From Acinetobacter baretiae (GTDB taxonomy: Bacteria > Pseudomonadota > Gammaproteobacteria > Pseudomonadales > Moraxellaceae), in contig NZ_VTDM01000017.1 in the NCBI RefSeq assembly GCF_015627105.1, forward strand, positions 1-64,000: DNA of 64,000 nucleotides, given 5' to 3'. The notes under the pieces were generated by a model, which searched no databases, had not been told where the DNA came from, and saw only the letters and a list, made by a program, of their open reading frames with translations. The position numbers and the translations under genes are program-made. This document shows, piece after piece, positions 17,579-58,671 of the stretch. The stretch's first letter is position 1. Each line of letters starts with the position of its first letter.

Positions 17579-18697
17579 ATGGCTAAACGTGATTATTATG
17601 AAGTTTTAGCAGTGGCTAAAACGGCAAGTGATGATGAAATTAAAAAAGCCTACCGCAAGTTGGCGATGAAGTATCATCCAGACCGTAACCCAGATAACCC
17701 AGAAGCTGAAGAAAAGTTTAAAGAAGCGACTGAAGCTTACGAAGTGCTTTCAAATGCTGAAAAGCGTAGCATGTATGACCGTATGGGTCACAATGCATTT
17801 GAGGGCGGTGGAGCAGGTGGTGGATATGGCGGCTTCGGCGGTGGTGGTTTTAGCGCAGAGGATATTTTCAGTCAATTTGGTGATATTTTTGGTGGTGGCC
17901 GCCGTCAACAACAACGCCAACGTACAGGCTCAGACCTACGTTATGTTCTCGACCTTTCTTTAGAAGAAGCGGTAAAAGGCATCAAAAAAACCATTACATT
18001 TACCGCGCCTGCACCGTGTGGTTCGTGTCATGGTAAGGGATCTGAAAATCCAAATGATGTTGAAACATGCGGTACCTGTCATGGTGCAGGGCAAGTACGT
18101 ATTCAACAAGGCTTCTTTGCAGTACAACAAACATGTAGTACTTGTCATGGTTTGGGTAAAATTATTAAAAACCCATGTAAAACATGTCATGGTGCTGGGG
18201 TTAAAGACCGTCAGCAAACGCTTGAAGTCACTATACCTGCTGGTGTAGACAACGGCGATCGTGTACGTTTGACAGGAAAAGGCGAGGCAATTCGTGATGG
18301 CCAAGCTGGTGACTTGTATGTTGAAGTTGCAGTACGCGAGCACGAAGTTTTTCAACGTGATGGGGCTGACTTGTATATGGATGTGCCTGTCAATGTTGTC
18401 GATGCTGCCTTAGGGAAAGAAATTGAAATTCCGACACTCGATGGTCGTTTAAGTCTTAAAATTCCAGAAGGTACTCAAAGTGGAAAAGTATTCCGCTTAC
18501 GTGGTAAAGGGGTTCGTCCGGTTCGAGCAAGCATGGTCGGTGACTTACTTTGCCGTGTGGTTGTCGAAACCCCTGTGAATCTTACTAGCCGTCAACGCGA
18601 GTTATTTAAAGAACTCCAAGCCTCTATGGAAGGTAATGGTTCGGAAAAACACTCAAGTGAAAAGAAAAAATCATTTATTGATCGCTTATTTGATTAA
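17579..18697 (+). CDS. dnaJ: Chaperone protein DnaJ
   Basis: 372 residues, type I Hsp40. It delivers unfolded clients to DnaK and stimulates its ATPase. Domain order: J domain with the HPD motif at residues 33-35; a Gly/Phe-rich linker ([12 protein letters not shown]); four CxxCxGxG zinc-binding repeats ([32 protein letters not shown]); and C-terminal substrate-binding domains. AAGGAG lies 11 bases before the start. dnaK is not adjacent; the next gene is dapB, behind a terminator. Confidence 0.98.
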
Positions 18698-18710
18698 TAA
18701 ACACGAAATA

Positions 18711-18739
18711 AAAAACCTGTCTAAATGACAGGTTTTTTT
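18711..18739 (+). terminator. Intrinsic terminator after dnaJ
   Basis: AAAAACCTGTC (18711-18721), loop TAAAT, GACAGGTTTTT from 18727 running into seven T. Short loop, strong stem and U-tract. Confidence 0.92.
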
Positions 18740-18803
18740 ATTATCAGAACATAGATCGCTTCAGTTTTGTTATAGTAAAGCGCATTAAAAATAGATCATT
18801 TAG

Positions 18804-19634
<831 letters not shown>

Positions 19635-51302: not shown

Positions 51303-52619
51303 TTAATCAGTTAAATACAGTTGCTCACCCACAGCGTGAAAAAGGCGATCTAAATCATCGACTTTACTGTTAAACATAGGGCCAAACTGTAAAGTATCTC
51401 CACCAAAGCGAACATAAAACCCTGCTTTCCAAAGTGCAATACCTGCTTCAAAAGGACGTATGGTGGGGTCACCCTCTTTGGCATGTAATTGAATAGCACC
51501 GACTAATCCACAATTACGAATGTCAACGACATGCGGGCATGTTTTTAAGCCATGAATGAGTTGCTCAAACTTTGGAGCTAAGTTTTTGGATTGTTCGATT
51601 AAGTGCTCCTCTTTTAGTAATTGCAGTGTGGCTAAACCTGCTGCACAGGCCACAGGGTGGGCTGAATAGGTATAACCATGTGCAAACTCAATGGCATGTT
51701 CGGGCAAGTCTTGTTGCATGAAAGCATGGTAAATTTTAGAACTTGCAACAACGCCACCTAAAGGGATACTGCCATTGGTAATTTGTTTGGCAAAATTTAA
51801 AATGTCTGGTGTAACACCAAAATATTCTGCACCTGTCCATGTGCCTAAACGGCCAAAGCCTGTAATGACTTCATCAAAAATAAGTAAAATATCGTGCTGA
51901 TCACAAATTTCACGCAAACGCTGTAAATAGCCTTTTGGTGGAATAATTGCCCCTGCCGAACCCGATAACGGTTCAACGATGACCGCTGCAATATTAGATG
52001 CATCGTGCAGTTCAATAAGTTTTAACATGTCGTTGGCCAGTGCTATACCGCCATCTTCTGCCATACCTTGGGTAAACGCATGACCTGTTTGTAAGGTATG
52101 AGGTAAATGGTCTACATCTAAAAATTGACCAAAAGCTTTTCGATTACCTGAAATACCACCAAGACTCGTTCCTGCTAAATTCACGCCGTGATAGCCTTTC
52201 ATACGACCAATAAATTTGGTTTTAGAAGCTTTGCCTTGAATCCGCCAGTAGGCTTTGGCTAATTTTACCGCTGTGTCTGCACATTCAGAGCCCGATCCTG
52301 TAAATAAAACATGATTGAGCCCTTGAGGCATCAGTTCAACAATTTTATCTGCCAATTCAAACGATAAAGGGTGTGCATATTGGAAAGCAGGTGAGTAATC
52401 GAGTGTTGCTAACTGTTTTGTGACTGCTTGACCAATACTACTGCGAGTATGTCCTGCGCCACAGGTCCATAAACCAGATAAAGAATCGTAGATTTGTCGA
52501 CCATGATCATCGGTTAAGTGGTGGTGGTGAGCAGATACAACCACTCGGGGATCTTTGTGAAAGCTTCGGTTGGCACTAAACGCAAGCCAATGCGCATTTG
52601 AGTATGTTTTTGTAGTCAT
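51303..52619 (-). CDS. Beta-alanine:pyruvate (omega-amino acid) aminotransferase
   Basis: 438 residues, class III PLP aminotransferase. Closest recalled pattern is the Pseudomonas omega-amino acid:pyruvate transaminase: LFTGSGSECADTAVKLAKAY, LLIFDEVITGFGRLGTW, PLP lysine in LNFAKQITNGSIPLGG, EFAHGYTYSAHPVACAAGLA and AGFYVRFGGDTLQFGP. It interconverts malonate semialdehyde plus alanine with beta-alanine plus pyruvate. It lies 101 bp behind rutG on the same strand, and the Rut pathway yields malonate semialdehyde, so it can replace the missing RutE reductase. That coupling is inference. Confidence 0.88.
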   Translation of the reverse strand: MTTKTYSNAHWLAFSANRSFHKDPRVVVSAHHHHLTDDHGRQIYDSLSGLWTCGAGHTRSSIGQAVTKQLATLDYSPAFQYAHPLSFELADKIVELMPQGLNHVLFTGSGSECADTAVKLAKAYWRIQGKASKTKFIGRMKGYHGVNLAGTSLGGISGNRKAFGQFLDVDHLPHTLQTGHAFTQGMAEDGGIALANDMLKLIELHDASNIAAVIVEPLSGSAGAIIPPKGYLQRLREICDQHDILLIFDEVITGFGRLGTWTGAEYFGVTPDILNFAKQITNGSIPLGGVVASSKIYHAFMQQDLPEHAIEFAHGYTYSAHPVACAAGLATLQLLKEEHLIEQSKNLAPKFEQLIHGLKTCPHVVDIRNCGLVGAIQLHAKEGDPTIRPFEAGIALWKAGFYVRFGGDTLQFGPMFNSKVDDLDRLFHAVGEQLYLTD

Positions 52620-52720
52620 GCTTGCCTCAGTGATAAAGAGATTTTTTAGTGATTGATGTTTTATTTTTTAAGGGTAATGTACGCAGTGTTTGATCACTGC
52701 GTTTTCATTATTGTATGGTA

Positions 52721-54016
52721 CTAGGCGTGTGTTTTACGGTTTAAAATGAGATTGAGTACAATCGCAGCAAATGTTGCAGTACCAATGCCACCTAAATCGA
52801 GGCTACCGATGTGTAAAGCATAGTTTCCAGCACCCATAATAATTGTTACGGCTGCAACAAACATATTGCCATTTTGGCTAAAATCGACGTTATGATTGAT
52901 CCAAATACGAATACCCGAAATGGTGATTAATCCAAATACTACAATAGATGCACCCCCTAAAATTGCATTTGGAATGGTACTAATTAATGCGCCAAATTTA
53001 GGGGATAATCCTAAAGCAATTGCAAATATACCAGCCACAACAAAAATGATGGTTGAGTAAATTTTGGTTGCAGCCATCACACCAATATTTTCAGCATATG
53101 TGGTCATACCTGTACCCCCAATCATTCCGGAAATACTTGTGCAAACACCATCAGCAAGAAATGCACGTCCCATATAAGGTGAAATATTTTGACCTGTCAT
53201 CGCACTGACAGCTTTAAAGTGTCCTAAATTTTCTGCCACTAAAATAATCACAACAGGAATGATCAGTAGGGCTGCATTCATGGTAAATACAGGACTGTGA
53301 AAGGTGGGTAAACCGAACCAAGCTGCTTGTTGAATAGGTGCAAAATCAATAGGTTTACCAAAACCCATCACGTTAGAAAGGACAAAGTAAATAATGTAAG
53401 ACAGCACTAAGCCAACAAGAAGAAGCAAACGGCGCAGTAAACCTGTGGTAAATACAGCCACTGAGCCAATACATAACACAGTCACAAAGGCTAACCAACT
53501 GTCAAATGCATTGCCAGATACGCCTTTAATGGTCACAGGTGCAAGGTTTAAGCCAATGATCATGACAATCGCACCAGTCACGACAGGTGGTAATAGATTT
53601 TCAATCCATTGTGTTCCTGTTTTCATCACCAGTAAACCAATGACAGCATAGACCACACCACATAAAACAATACCACCTAATGCAAGTTCAATATGTGGGT
53701 TTGCACCCACACCGCTATAACCTGTTGCTGCGGCTACTGCACCAATAAAAGCAAAGCTTGAACCGAGATAACTTGGGACTCGTCCTCCTGTGATGAGGAA
53801 AAATAAAATAGTACCAATTCCTGTCATGAGCATGGTTAAGCTTGGATTAAAGCCCATGAGTAAAGGAGCTAAAATAGTGGCACCAAACATGGCAAAAGCA
53901 TGTTGTGCTCCCAAAACAATAGATTGCCCTGCAGGTAAGTATTCATTCATTGCTACGGGTGTTTTTTCTAAATCACCTTTAAATGGTTTCCATGTATTAA
54001 ACCAGCGTTCACTCAT
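52721..54016 (-). CDS. rutG: Uracil permease RutG (nucleobase:cation symporter-2)
   Basis: 431 residues, about 14 membrane segments. Seen: QHAFAMFGATILAPLLMGFNP, GGRVPSYLGSSFAFIG, the NCS2 motif region VAENLGHFKAVSAMTGQNI and GGTGMTTYAENIGVMAATKIYS. The sequence follows E. coli RutG closely. It imports uracil (or other pyrimidines) for the Rut pathway encoded immediately upstream. Confidence 0.95.
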   Translation of the reverse strand: MSERWFNTWKPFKGDLEKTPVAMNEYLPAGQSIVLGAQHAFAMFGATILAPLLMGFNPSLTMLMTGIGTILFFLITGGRVPSYLGSSFAFIGAVAAATGYSGVGANPHIELALGGIVLCGVVYAVIGLLVMKTGTQWIENLLPPVVTGAIVMIIGLNLAPVTIKGVSGNAFDSWLAFVTVLCIGSVAVFTTGLLRRLLLLVGLVLSYIIYFVLSNVMGFGKPIDFAPIQQAAWFGLPTFHSPVFTMNAALLIIPVVIILVAENLGHFKAVSAMTGQNISPYMGRAFLADGVCTSISGMIGGTGMTTYAENIGVMAATKIYSTIIFVVAGIFAIALGLSPKFGALISTIPNAILGGASIVVFGLITISGIRIWINHNVDFSQNGNMFVAAVTIIMGAGNYALHIGSLDLGGIGTATFAAIVLNLILNRKTHA

Positions 54017-54061
54017 TGGATGAATTCCCCTTGATGTACAAAAAAAGTGTGAGTGATAAAT

Positions 54062-54646
54062 TTAAGGGTGACGATTTAAGTTGTGATAGGCACGGTCAAA
54101 ATAAATCAGGCCATGTCCTGTTCCTATTTTGGTTTCTAGTACTTCACAAAATAAAACATCATGTGTACCCACACTTGAAATGTTTGTGATTTTACAATCA
54201 AAAGCCACTACAGCATCATCTAGTACAGGAGATGATGTGCATAAATAATGCCAAGTTGCTTTTTCAAAGCGTTCTGGCATTGGTGTCTTACCACCAAAGG
54301 TATTGGAGAGTGTAGCGTGGTGTTGCCCTAGCGTATTTACGCATAAAACTTGATTGGTTTTAAAGGTTTCATATACCGAAGCATTACGGTTTAGACAAAC
54401 CAATAATGTAGGAGGCTGATCTGTTACGCTACATACTGCAGAGGCTGTAAAACCTGCCTGACCTGCAGGGCCATTTGTAGTAATCACATTAACTGCAGTT
54501 GCCAATTGGCTCATCGCATTACGAAAATTTTGCTGTGCATCAGAAAGTATAGGTTTATTCATGAGAGATAGAGGAGTGTTTTGATGAGATGGAGTAGGGA
54601 TGGTATGTTCTACATTTACACGAGATGATCGAGCGTTATCTAACAT
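54062..54646 (-). CDS. rutF: Flavin reductase RutF
   Basis: 194 residues, about 30 longer at the N terminus than E. coli RutF, yet the start has GAGG 7 bases upstream and no better start lies inside. Core motifs [37 protein letters not shown] in pieces, [13 protein letters not shown] and [11 protein letters not shown] match RutF. It supplies reduced FMN to the RutA monooxygenase using NADH. Confidence 0.95.
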
Positions 54647-54758
54647 GGTGTATCCTCATGGTAAAAAACAAGTGACGATCTACCTATAAATACAGTAGCA
54701 CCATGATATATGCGATATGGTACTACTGTATGCCAAATGATCTATACAAAGATTGACT

Positions 54759-55139
54759 TTATAGGTGAGCGATTGATGAAATTTCAATCAATGCATCGGG
54801 TTTAACTAAACCACATTGTATGCAATAACGTGCAGGTTTATCTCCCGGAAAGTATTCTGCATACACTGCATTGACTGCGGCATAATCTGCCCAATCTTTA
54901 ATAAAAATAGAATTAAATGTCACGTCATCCATACTTCCGCCTGCTGTTTCAATGACTGTTTGAATGGTTGTGAGTACATGATGAGTTTGTGCTGTGGCAT
55001 CGCCAACATGAACAACGTTGTTTTGGTGATCTAGTGGCAGTGTGCCTGAAACATAAACAATGTTGTCTGCACGGGTAGCAGGAACATATGGTGCAAGTGG
55101 TTTTCCTGTTCCTTCAGGTAAAATAATAGTTTTTGGCAT
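54759..55139 (-). CDS. rutC: 3-aminoacrylate deaminase RutC (RidA family)
   Basis: 126 residues. RidA/YjgF fold: [43 protein letters not shown] and the conserved Arg in [20 protein letters not shown]. In the Rut pathway it speeds deamination of 3-aminoacrylate to malonate semialdehyde. Order rutA-B-C-F-G supports RutC over a general RidA. Confidence 0.95.
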
Positions 55140-55168
55140 GATGTATTTTCCTTTTTAATCAGTAAAAT

Positions 55169-55885
55169 TTATGAATGAAATGTTTCGACAAAGTTTTGAG
55201 TATTGGATACCCAACCAAAAAAGGTTTTAACATTAAATAAAGTGGCATCATGTGCCGAGGAAGGGCCAGCTTGATAGCAAGCATCATCAAGCAATACACC
55301 AAAGTATTCTAAAAAGAAGCCATCTCTGAGTGTAGATTCAACGCATACATTGGTTGCAATGCCTGTAAACACCAAATTGCGAATGCCTTGAGCACGTAAA
55401 ATACTGTCAAACTGTGTATTAAAAAATCCGCTATAGCGTGGTTTAGGAATGACAATATCTTGTGGTTGTGGTGTAAGCTGATCGATTAATTCATAATCCC
55501 AACCACCTTTGGCCAAAAGTGTGCCTTGTAATTCTGGGCGTTTACGCATGGTTTTGAGTGCATTTGATTTATGGAAGTTGGGCGAACCTGCACCACCTGC
55601 TTCTACATATTGATCATCCCAACCATTTTTAAAGAAAATAACTTGAATGCCTGCTTGATGAGCCGTTTTAATGGCTTGTTGAATTTTTTCGATCACTGGT
55701 TGTGTGGTAGAGACATCAAACCCTGCTAAATCTAAATAGCCTCCAAGGGTTGAATAGGCATTTTGCATATCAACAACAATAAGCGCAGTTTGTTTCGGGT
55801 CAAGGCGAATAGATTCAGGTTCAGCAGTCAGCACAGGGCTAGTTTCTGAGGTAAATTCGGCAGAAACAAGGTTTATTTCACTCAT
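55169..55885 (-). CDS. rutB: Ureidoacrylate amidohydrolase RutB
   Basis: 238 residues, isochorismatase-like hydrolase: catalytic Asp in [21 protein letters not shown], Lys in [13 protein letters not shown], Cys in [20 protein letters not shown]. It cleaves ureidoacrylate, the RutA product, to aminoacrylate with loss of carbamate. ATG overlaps the rutA stop by 4 bp. Confidence 0.96.
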
Positions 55886-57000
55886 ACGGTTACATCCTCT
55901 GTTATATCTTTGACTTGACTCAGCACAGGGCTGTCTATATGGATACGACTTTTCATGAGTGGTTGAATTTTTTCACCAAAGTCGTTCACGCCTTGTATAA
56001 AATCATCAAAGGTCAGTAAAATTCCTGCTGTGCCTTTAATGTGTGAAATTTCATCTAACATGGCTGCTACCTTTTCAAATGAACCAACCAGCGTGCCCAT
56101 ATTAATATTGACTGGTGAAACACTTGATGCCATATGTTTAATGTTGGTGTCTGAACCCGATGTTTTATCTTTTGATCCTTGATCTTGTAACCAAGCAATT
56201 GCTTCTAAATCAGCGCCTTCATTGTATTTCACCCATTTTTCCATCGCTTCTTCATTGCTAGGTGCAGCAATGACCATAAATAATGCTAAGGTTTCAACAT
56301 GACGTCCTGTTTTGTCTGTTTGTTGTTTTAAGCGTTCGTTGATCGGTGCAAATGCTGTAGGGGTGTTTAAACCTTTACCAAAAACAAAATTATAGGTGGC
56401 ATATTTGGCAGAAAATGCTAAACCTGCATCTGATTGTCCTGCACAAATAATACTGAGCTCTTTTGATGGTGTTGGTTTAACATGACAGTCATCCATTTGA
56501 AAAAACTCGCCTTTGAAATCTGATGCTCCTGTACGCCAAAGGTCTTTAAGTACATGCACATATTCAGCAAGATATTCATAACGTTTACCAAAAAAGGCAT
56601 CACCCGGCCACATGCCCATTTGGCTGTATTCAGGCCGTTGCCAACCCGTAACGACATTTAAACCGAAACGACCATTGGATATTGAATCTAGAGTTGTTGC
56701 CATACGTGCCACAATGGCAGGTGGCATGACCAATGTGGCGGACGTTGCAAAAATTTTAATTTTAGAGGTAACAGCCGCTAAGCCTGACATGAGTGTGAAA
56801 CTTTCAAGATTGTAGTCCCAAAATTCTGTTTCCCCTCCAAAGCCACGAAGTTTGATCATCGATAAGGCAAAATCAAAACCATATTTTTCTGCACTCAAGA
56901 CAATTTCTTTGTTTAATTCAAATGTGGGTTTGTACTGAGGTGAGTTTTTTGAAATTAACCAACCATTGTTTCCAATCGGACAAAAAATACCTACTTGCAT
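55882..57000 (-). CDS. rutA: Pyrimidine monooxygenase RutA
   Basis: 372 residues from 57000, where GAGG lies 6 bases upstream; a 4-codon longer frame is less likely. Luciferase-like FMNH2-dependent monooxygenase that opens the uracil ring. It follows E. coli RutA closely: [60 protein letters not shown] and [16 protein letters not shown]. First gene of the rut operon, divergent from rutR. Confidence 0.97.
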
Positions 57001-57120
57001 GTGGCACCTCATTGATAATATGGTTTTTTAAACCTGTTATTTTTATTTATGCATAATATATGCCAATATTATTTTTATAATATAAACAATATTTTATATA
57101 TTTTTTATTGTTTTTTTAGT

Positions 57121-57136
57121 TGGACTAAATAGTCCA
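57121..57136. promoter_or_regulatory. RutR operator
   Basis: TGGACTA-AA-TAGTCCA is a perfect 7-2-7 palindrome in the rutA/rutR gap. E. coli RutR binds TTGACCAnnTGGTCAA, the same 7-2-7 geometry. It lies 121 bp before rutA and 133 bp before rutR. Confidence 0.8.
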
Positions 57137-57268
57137 CTTTATGCACCCAAATAAAACACATACTCTTTTTCTGCACAAATTTTATGCAGAAAATGCTAAA
57201 GTACAGCAAGTTGTATATACTCAGCTAAACCCACTAAAGGTCAATCATAGGTGTTGATGTGAGTGCAA

Positions 57269-57901
57269 ATGAGTCGCAGTAAGAAAACGCAAGTAATGGC
57301 ATCTAAAGAACAGCATATTGTTTTATCTGCATTGTCGGTATTTTCACATTATGGTTTGCAAGGTGCCAGCATGGAAAAAATTGCTGAAGCGGCAGGTGTG
57401 TCTAAATCTAATTTATTTTATTATTTTAAAAACAAAGAGCACTTATATATAGAGGTACTGTCTTATGTGTTGACCGAATGGTTAACGCCTTTGAATTATT
57501 TTTCTGAAGAAAGTGACCCTCAACAGGTCTTAGAAAGTTATATTGAACTTAAATATGAGATGTCAAAGAACAATCCTCAGGCTTCTCGTTTGTATGCTTT
57601 AGAAATCATTCAAGGCTCACCTTATTTAATGAAGGTATTAAAAACTGCATTAAAACCGTTGGTACTGAAAAAAGTACAGATTATTGAATACTGGATTGCA
57701 CAAAAGAAAATTAAACCTGTATCGCCAATTCATCTCATTTTTCATATTTGGGCAGTGACACAGCATTATGCAGATTTTGCCACGCAAGTTCAGGTTGTGT
57801 CGGGTAAAACACTGAGCAATAAAGCATTTAAACAAGATGCAATTGCCACGACCAAGCAATTACTCGTAAATAGTATTTTACCAGACACTTTTTTAGATTA
57901 A
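57269..57901 (+). CDS. rutR: TetR-family regulator RutR
   Basis: 210 residues from the ATG at 57269 (GTG 57263 is possible). N-terminal HTH: FSHYGLQGASMEKIAEAAGVSKSNLFYYFKNKEHLYIEVL split over helices 1-3. The C-terminal domain with QASRLYALEIIQGSPYLM and HLIFHIWAVTQHYADFATQV follows E. coli RutR, which is released from rut DNA by uracil or thymine. Divergent from rutA and convergent with rutD, whose stop overlaps by 4 bp. Confidence 0.93.
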   Translation: MSRSKKTQVMASKEQHIVLSALSVFSHYGLQGASMEKIAEAAGVSKSNLFYYFKNKEHLYIEVLSYVLTEWLTPLNYFSEESDPQQVLESYIELKYEMSKNNPQASRLYALEIIQGSPYLMKVLKTALKPLVLKKVQIIEYWIAQKKIKPVSPIHLIFHIWAVTQHYADFATQVQVVSGKTLSNKAFKQDAIATTKQLLVNSILPDTFLD

Positions 57902-58671
57902 GGCATTAAAAATTTGAATAAACAGTCATTTATTTGGGACGTTTGAGTGACTGTAGAAGCATGTGCTCCTGTATCAAATAATTCAAATTGACTGTGAGTA
58001 ATGGCTTTAGAGAGTGCAAGACCGCGCTGCCAAGGTACTAAAAAATCATCTTGATTACTGATAATTAAACAAGGCATATCAATGGCATGAATGGCATGTA
58101 ATGGTTGATAGCTTTTAAGTGCATGTAGTCGAGTTTTAATATTATGCGTGGTGCACGCTTGATCTATCATGTACTGTTCTTGCTGTTTAAGCTGTTGGTC
58201 ATGTTGTGAAATCCATGCAGGTGGATATAAAAACAATGCTTGGGCTTGAATGTATGCTGAAATACCTGCATGTTCGAGTAACTTAAGACGTGTGTTAAAA
58301 CAACGTATTGTATGTGGGTCTAGTTCTTCCCATGGATTAATCATAATGATTTTTTCAATCTGTTTCGGTGCGATTTTGGCTAATTCCATGCCAATAAATG
58401 CACCTAAAGCATGACCTATAAAATAACAGGTTTTAATCTGTGCATGCTCTATGATTTGATATAACTCACGTGCCATGTCTGTTAATGTATAATCTTGAGG
58501 TAGATCGGCACTTTGATGATGAATACCGACATGATCATAGGTAAGTACATTAAAATGTTGTGTTAGTGCTTCAAGTTGTGGTGCCCAAAATTGAGCATGT
58601 CCTCCTAAACCTGAACTGAGAACAATCGTTTTGGCCTCGGATTGTTGACTTGGATAAATGGTATATGTCAT
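57898..58671 (-). CDS. rutD: Alpha/beta hydrolase RutD
   Basis: 257 residues. Follows E. coli RutD: VLSSGLGGHAQFWAPQLEAL, YFIGHALGAFIGMELA (Ala in place of the usual serine nucleophile, as I recall for RutD), MINPWEELDPHTIRCFNTRLKLLEHAG in pieces, and DTGAHASTV with the His. Proposed to hydrolyse aminoacrylate/carbamate in the Rut pathway. It is not in the rutA-G operon; it lies on the other side of rutR, convergent with it, and needs its own promoter. Confidence 0.93.
   Translation of the reverse strand: MTYTIYPSQQSEAKTIVLSSGLGGHAQFWAPQLEALTQHFNVLTYDHVGIHHQSADLPQDYTLTDMARELYQIIEHAQIKTCYFIGHALGAFIGMELAKIAPKQIEKIIMINPWEELDPHTIRCFNTRLKLLEHAGISAYIQAQALFLYPPAWISQHDQQLKQQEQYMIDQACTTHNIKTRLHALKSYQPLHAIHAIDMPCLIISNQDDFLVPWQRGLALSKAITHSQFELFDTGAHASTVTQTSQINDCLFKFLMP

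Follow-up and report, generated by a model that had tools for sequence, protein, structure and literature searches.

A rut operon that lacks rutE and ends in a beta-alanine:pyruvate aminotransferase gene in panD-less Acinetobacter baretiae

In Acinetobacter baretiae, the genes of the oxidative Rut pathway of uracil degradation lack rutE and run into a gene for a beta-alanine:pyruvate aminotransferase (hereafter AT), in a genome that has also lost panD, whose product normally supplies the beta-alanine of vitamin B5 and coenzyme A. We favour, as just on the probable side, the explanation that RutE was lost from this operon and replaced by the BauA-type AT, which would make beta-alanine and act both as a replacement for PanD and as an aldehyde sink. 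The wider proposal, that oxidative Rut was turned from nitrogen scavenging into the main supply of beta-alanine, pantothenate and coenzyme A of a PanD-less Acinetobacter lineage by means of a reversed catabolic aminotransferase, is tentative and in our estimate falls somewhat short of being probable.

Organization of the rut locus and its aminotransferase gene

The window, i.e., the whole stretch of 64,000 nucleotides that was analysed, belongs to the A. baretiae assembly GCF_015627105.1 (2.58 Mb, 70 contigs, 99.98% complete), which represents a small-genome Acinetobacter akin to flower-nectar species. Genes were called with NCBIfam models, the bit score of each match being compared with the cut-off of its model, and all open reading frames across positions 51303-58671 are intact. 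The minus strand carries the order rutA-rutB-rutC-rutF-rutG-AT, and both the model matches and the intact reading frames confirm the sequence-only reading, which had placed rutA, B, C, F and G, followed by AT, on one strand; the genes that it named in this span stand, and rutR (57263-57901) and rutD (57898-58671), which it had left unnamed, complete the following list.

51303-52619, minus strand: AT, BauA/AptA-type omega-amino acid aminotransferase of 438 aa (NF052567, 668 bits, cut-off 500)
52620-52720, minus strand: rutG-AT gap of 101 bp, containing a hairpin with an 8-bp stem (MFE -16.5 kcal/mol, z -4.75)
52721-54016, minus strand: rutG, pyrimidine permease (NCS2) (TIGR03616, 728 bits, cut-off 759; below the cut-off, yet the best match)
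54062-54646, minus strand: rutF, FMN reductase, start codon uncertain (TIGR03615, 248 bits, cut-off 255; below the cut-off, best match)
54759-55139, minus strand: rutC, 3-aminoacrylate deaminase (TIGR03610, 243 bits, cut-off 169)
55169-55885, minus strand: rutB, ureidoacrylate amidohydrolase (TIGR03614, 424 bits, cut-off 378)
55882-57012, minus strand: rutA, pyrimidine oxygenase (TIGR03612, 667 bits, cut-off 498)
57120-57137, plus strand: palindrome TTGGACTAAATAGTCCAC in the rutR-rutA intergenic region, putative RutR operator (single copy in the window at <=3 mismatches)
57263-57901, plus strand: rutR, TetR-family regulator, divergent from rutA (TIGR03613, 241 bits, cut-off 368; clearly below the cut-off, best match)
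57898-58671, minus strand: rutD, alpha/beta hydrolase, a separate unit convergent with rutR (TIGR03611, 313 bits, cut-off 238.5)

RutA, RutB and RutC, which mark the locus as a Rut operon, are thus accompanied by RutD, RutF, RutG and RutR, and RutE is absent. Compared with a second model, PRK15008, rutR scored 221 bits against a cut-off of 230.

By its full-length, equivalog-level match and its catalytic motifs, AT is predicted to be a canonical BauA/AptA enzyme. Its nearest solved structures are the Pseudomonas beta-alanine:pyruvate transaminases 4b98, 4uhm and 3a8u (E values of 9e-222 for BauA 4b98 and 4e-221 for 4uhm), and both the PLP lysine (AKQ at 277) and the flipping, carboxylate-binding arginine (YVRFGG at 402) are retained and match the aligned BauA residues. 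Comparison with the A. boissieri gene gave a dN/dS of 0.035 (NG86), the same as for rutG and rutA and a rough value since dS exceeds 1, which points to strong purifying selection on AT between the two genomes.

The hairpin in the gap between rutG and AT lacks a T-tract on the operon strand and was for that reason rejected as an intrinsic terminator of operon transcription. A hairpin occupies the equivalent site in A. boissieri and A. rathckeae, the arm sequences differing across the three species while pairing is kept. The structure could lower AT expression, and AT is presumably co-transcribed with rutG. Palindromes of the TTGGACTAAATAGTCCAC type are expected by chance in the window at a mean of 0.34 copies with <=3 mismatches; the window scan at this threshold located a RutR-like palindrome before rutA only and none before AT. 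Equivalent palindromes occur in A. boissieri and A. rathckeae, and TTTGACCATATGGTCAAA in A. populi.

Exits for malonate semialdehyde in the genome and at related rut loci

RutA/RutF, RutB and RutC/RutD together convert uracil into malonate semialdehyde and two molecules of ammonia. The earlier claim that rutE is missing was borne out both for the operon and for the whole genome, in which a model search returned nothing over the cut-off of 152 and the best score (60 bits) belonged to an NfsB-type nitroreductase; the possibility that RutE hides among the four nitroreductases of the genome was rejected on model scores. MmsA, also sought by a whole-genome model search, had no match over its cut-off of 448.5, and the top-scoring gene (302 bits) was rejected as a betaine-aldehyde dehydrogenase, a family in which it scores 864 bits. 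The adjacent CoA-acylating malonate semialdehyde dehydrogenase that marks a BauA-MmsA catabolic operon is therefore absent here, MmsA being found neither in the locus nor in the genome. The same search, which the sequence-only reading had proposed for rutE, ydfG and mmsA, did locate a YdfG orthologue on contig C1, which scores 336 bits (cut-off 411, model NF007829) and shares 55% identity with E. coli YdfG across 248 residues.

In E. coli, YdfG reduces malonate semialdehyde in vitro and RutE is considered the physiological enzyme (PMC8113886). A rutE null mutant cannot use pyrimidines as its only nitrogen source for growth, a defect that nemR suppressors relieve in ntrB(Con) strains (PMC3045373); as E. 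coli has ydfG, the defect of the mutant occurs despite that gene.

A scan for RutA across 84,980 species genomes yielded 80 loci, among which AT follows rutG only in the window, in A. boissieri (L005) and, split by an insertion sequence (IS), in A. rathckeae (L006), a conservation that argues against a chance arrangement. RutE is absent from all three genomes (family model; RutE was scored in 12 genomes), and no MmsA turned up among the best five candidates scored per genome for A. boissieri, A. rathckeae and genome G020. The suggestion that AT provides an exit for malonate semialdehyde is supported by the absence of RutE and MmsA, by the fact that A. boissieri and A. rathckeae have AT at the same place in the operon, and by purifying selection on the gene. 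Its further point, that this exit operates instead of reduction to 3-hydroxypropionate, is weakened, as the presence of a YdfG orthologue makes the aminotransferase exit probably not exclusive.

Other exits are found at related loci. The rut locus of A. nectaris has MmsA at the exit position, Psychrobacter and Alteromonas-type loci have MmsA and RutE, A. brisouii and A. populi have RutE beside rutD, and A. pittii and A. lactucae have RutE together with an MmsB-like dehydrogenase. One rhizobial locus, which has also kept RutE, contains an AT homologue (49%) at a distance of 8.5 kb from rutA. Two further features of these loci were recorded. The last genes of the A. nectaris rut locus encode MmsA and a PF00881-type nitroreductase that no NCBIfam model matches, a possible uncharacterised malonate semialdehyde-related enzyme, of which a 65%-identical homologue is encoded elsewhere in the A. 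baretiae genome (L008 15661-16254; L004 1432-2052). In A. puyangensis and A. populi, a second rutG and an MmsB-like gene lie a few kb past the rut genes (L013 and L014, about 18250-19620).

Loss of panD and the proposed source of beta-alanine

A panD gene scored over the cut-off in 144 of the 149 Acinetobacter genomes. It is missing from the A. baretiae genome, A. boissieri ANC 4422 (G099) and A. rathckeae EC24 (G026); G020 has a stop-bearing remnant with 31% identity at the equivalent position, and panD was not found in G030, a genome that is 65% complete. In A. nectaris CIP 110549 (G103), pth is followed by panD and a ribB-like gene; from A. baretiae, A. boissieri and A. rathckeae this panD-ribB segment has been excised, and 8 bp separate the end of pth from the following gene. 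The assignment of G099, G026 and G103 to these strains follows from their RutA coordinates. The ribB-like gene was thus lost along with panD in this clade (L170 4505-4513, L171 and L172, compared with L152 6745-8244).

The remaining pantothenate genes were retained. In A. baretiae and A. boissieri panB and panC are adjacent and intact, and each of the 14 genomes checked has panC; with panD absent, this is the gene content of PanD-less, PanBC-dependent pantothenate synthesis. The sole group II PLP decarboxylase of the A. baretiae genome adjoins a Dat-like aminotransferase and is nearest to diaminobutyrate decarboxylase; it was rejected as a PanP-type replacement for PanD (185 bits, cut-off 606). 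By these annotations the genome appears to keep a consumer of beta-alanine, PanC, and no known decarboxylase that makes it.

Since panBC was kept while panD was deleted, a source of beta-alanine is needed, and with panD lost the rut operon may be the replacement. The malonate semialdehyde delivered by the Rut enzymes would be aminated by AT, working in the synthetic direction, with L-alanine as donor, yielding beta-alanine and pyruvate. PanC would then join this beta-alanine to pantoate to form pantothenate, AT thereby standing in for the deleted PanD, and the same reaction would clear the toxic aldehyde, any excess of which may be taken by the YdfG orthologue. The synthetic direction requires no new chemistry of a BauA-type enzyme; a transaminase of this kind that forms beta-alanine from L-alanine and 3-oxopropanoate is described in PMC7142369.

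Of the consequences foreseen by the sequence-only reading, the use of beta-alanine for pantothenate gains much strength from the finding that panD was deleted and panBC kept. The salvage of carbon and nitrogen found no support: canonical Rut recovers both nitrogens and amination of malonate semialdehyde costs one, and without MmsA this genome offers no known way to process beta-alanine in bulk. What is gained from an aminotransferase exit is a vitamin precursor, at small flux.

AT, intact or broken, occurs in all four fairly complete panD-less genomes versus 40 of the 144 panD-positive ones, a correlation of little statistical weight, since all panD losses lie in one clade and may go back to a single event.

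Competing roles of the aminotransferase and known systems

Detoxification as the main task of AT is unlikely in our judgement; malonate semialdehyde would then be aminated and the beta-alanine excreted or stored, and the loss of panD would be incidental to genome reduction. The terminal position of AT in a RutE-less rut operon, the requirement of E. coli for RutE (PMC3045373), the other exits (MmsA, MmsB-like proteins, RutE) at related rut loci and the gene loss documented in nectar Acinetobacter (PMC11774029) would all agree with such a role, but panBC kept with panD deleted demands a beta-alanine source, and amination spends nitrogen and an amino donor on an aldehyde that YdfG could simply reduce.

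The distribution of AT bears on a second alternative. An orthologue is carried by 44 of the 149 Acinetobacter genomes, and in most of the examined loci that lie outside the clade of A. baretiae it stands beside MmsA and a LysR regulator, the layout of beta-alanine catabolism; the Pseudomonas relative likewise acts in beta-alanine catabolism together with an MmsA-type dehydrogenase (PMC4907197). These facts speak for a catabolic AT that would degrade beta-alanine and other omega-amino acids supplied by pollen, nectar or bees to malonate semialdehyde, which YdfG would then reduce, the linkage to rut pooling both sources of the aldehyde. We regard this as rather improbable, given that MmsA is gone from the A. 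baretiae genome, was undetected among the best five candidates in each of A. boissieri, A. rathckeae and G020, and that it is hard to see what a strain without RutE would gain from an extra load of toxic aldehyde. Within the A. brisouii group (L105-L109), AT adjoins an adenosine deaminase and a LysR regulator, not MmsA, which is another link of AT with nucleobase metabolism. In the AT tree, A. baretiae and A. boissieri cluster with G020 and have the A. brisouii group as neighbour; as this agrees with the PanC tree, AT was inherited vertically as a gene of beta-alanine metabolism and became linked to rut in the clade of A. baretiae.

Genome G020 (2.4 Mb) has an intact solitary AT and no functional panD, and RutA was not detected among its best five candidates scored; AT may therefore use another aldehyde there, for example one derived from 1,3-diaminopropane. 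Extended to A. baretiae, this would make AT a producer of beta-alanine from 1,3-diaminopropane (Dat/Ddc) via 3-aminopropanal and an aminoaldehyde/betaine-aldehyde dehydrogenase, its position in the rut locus being incidental. The genome does encode a Dat-Ddc-like pair and a betaine-aldehyde dehydrogenase, a Pseudomonas AAC homologue has been assayed with 1,3-diaminopropane (PMC4907197), and the retention of AT in G020 without Rut would be accounted for; nevertheless, we give this route very little credence, as no gene of the pathway is linked to AT, and neither the move of AT into the rut locus nor the loss of RutE would be explained.

In A. rathckeae EC24, AT is split by an IS-like element (L006 14382-16585) with terminal repeats AGACCTCTTGCGAAATAA / TTATTTCGCAAAAGGTCT and transposase frames on the minus strand. 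By its sequence EC24, which lacks panD, is a natural knockout of AT. AT would thus be dispensable in this strain, in which it is interrupted though panD is gone and panC is kept, and EC24 must import beta-alanine or pantothenate or use another source. Together with G020, which apparently lacks Rut, the broken gene speaks against AT being essential. Least probable of all is that these strains simply cannot make beta-alanine or pantothenate and obtain it from nectar, pollen or bees, AT having some other omega-amino acid or amine role: the deletion of panD in three species, the broken AT of EC24 and the nutrient-rich niche (PMC11774029) would suit it, but not the strong purifying selection on AT between A. 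baretiae and A. boissieri nor the location of the gene at rut.

The supply of beta-alanine by Rut and AT, if true, would constitute a third natural route from a central metabolite to beta-alanine for coenzyme A, besides aspartate decarboxylation and reductive uracil degradation; it would couple the formation of coenzyme A to the turnover of pyrimidines, account for the loss of panD from a free-living bacterium and exemplify the recruitment of a catabolic aminotransferase in reverse. The idea is directly testable in culturable type strains (A. boissieri, A. nectaris), with A. rathckeae EC24 as natural knockout. A study of genome evolution in nectar Acinetobacter describes genome reduction, and its main text is silent on pantothenate, panD, uracil and pyrimidines (PMC11774029). 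No description of a combination of Rut with an aminotransferase was found in the literature searched, in which older Rut papers were incompletely covered, so that priority for this variant is not certain.

Compared with the Rut system of E. coli (rutABCDEFG, rutR), the A. baretiae locus shares rutA, B, C, D, F, G and R, the divergent orientation of rutR and an operator-like palindrome before rutA; it differs in the absence of RutE, in AT as the last gene of the operon and in a separate rutD convergent with rutR. With BauA (4b98, 4uhm, 3a8u) and Caulobacter AptA, AT shares the full-length match and the lysine and flipping-arginine motifs, but those enzymes are usually paired with a malonate semialdehyde dehydrogenase for beta-alanine catabolism, whereas AT is found with rut and is proposed to work in reverse. 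The rut loci with an MmsA exit in A. nectaris and in Psychrobacter and Alteromonas relatives likewise end in an additional malonate semialdehyde enzyme, in their case a CoA-acylating dehydrogenase leading to acetyl-CoA and not an aminotransferase; RutE is mostly kept in the Psychrobacter and Alteromonas loci, but not in A. nectaris. A functional parallel is Rhizobium etli, in which uracil, degraded by the reductive route (AmaB), feeds beta-alanine into pantothenate without PanD (PMC7142369). Uracil degradation as the beta-alanine supply of a PanD-less bacterium would be common to both; in R. etli beta-alanine arises directly from N-carbamoyl-beta-alanine, whereas in A. baretiae it would be made by oxidative Rut and a transaminase.
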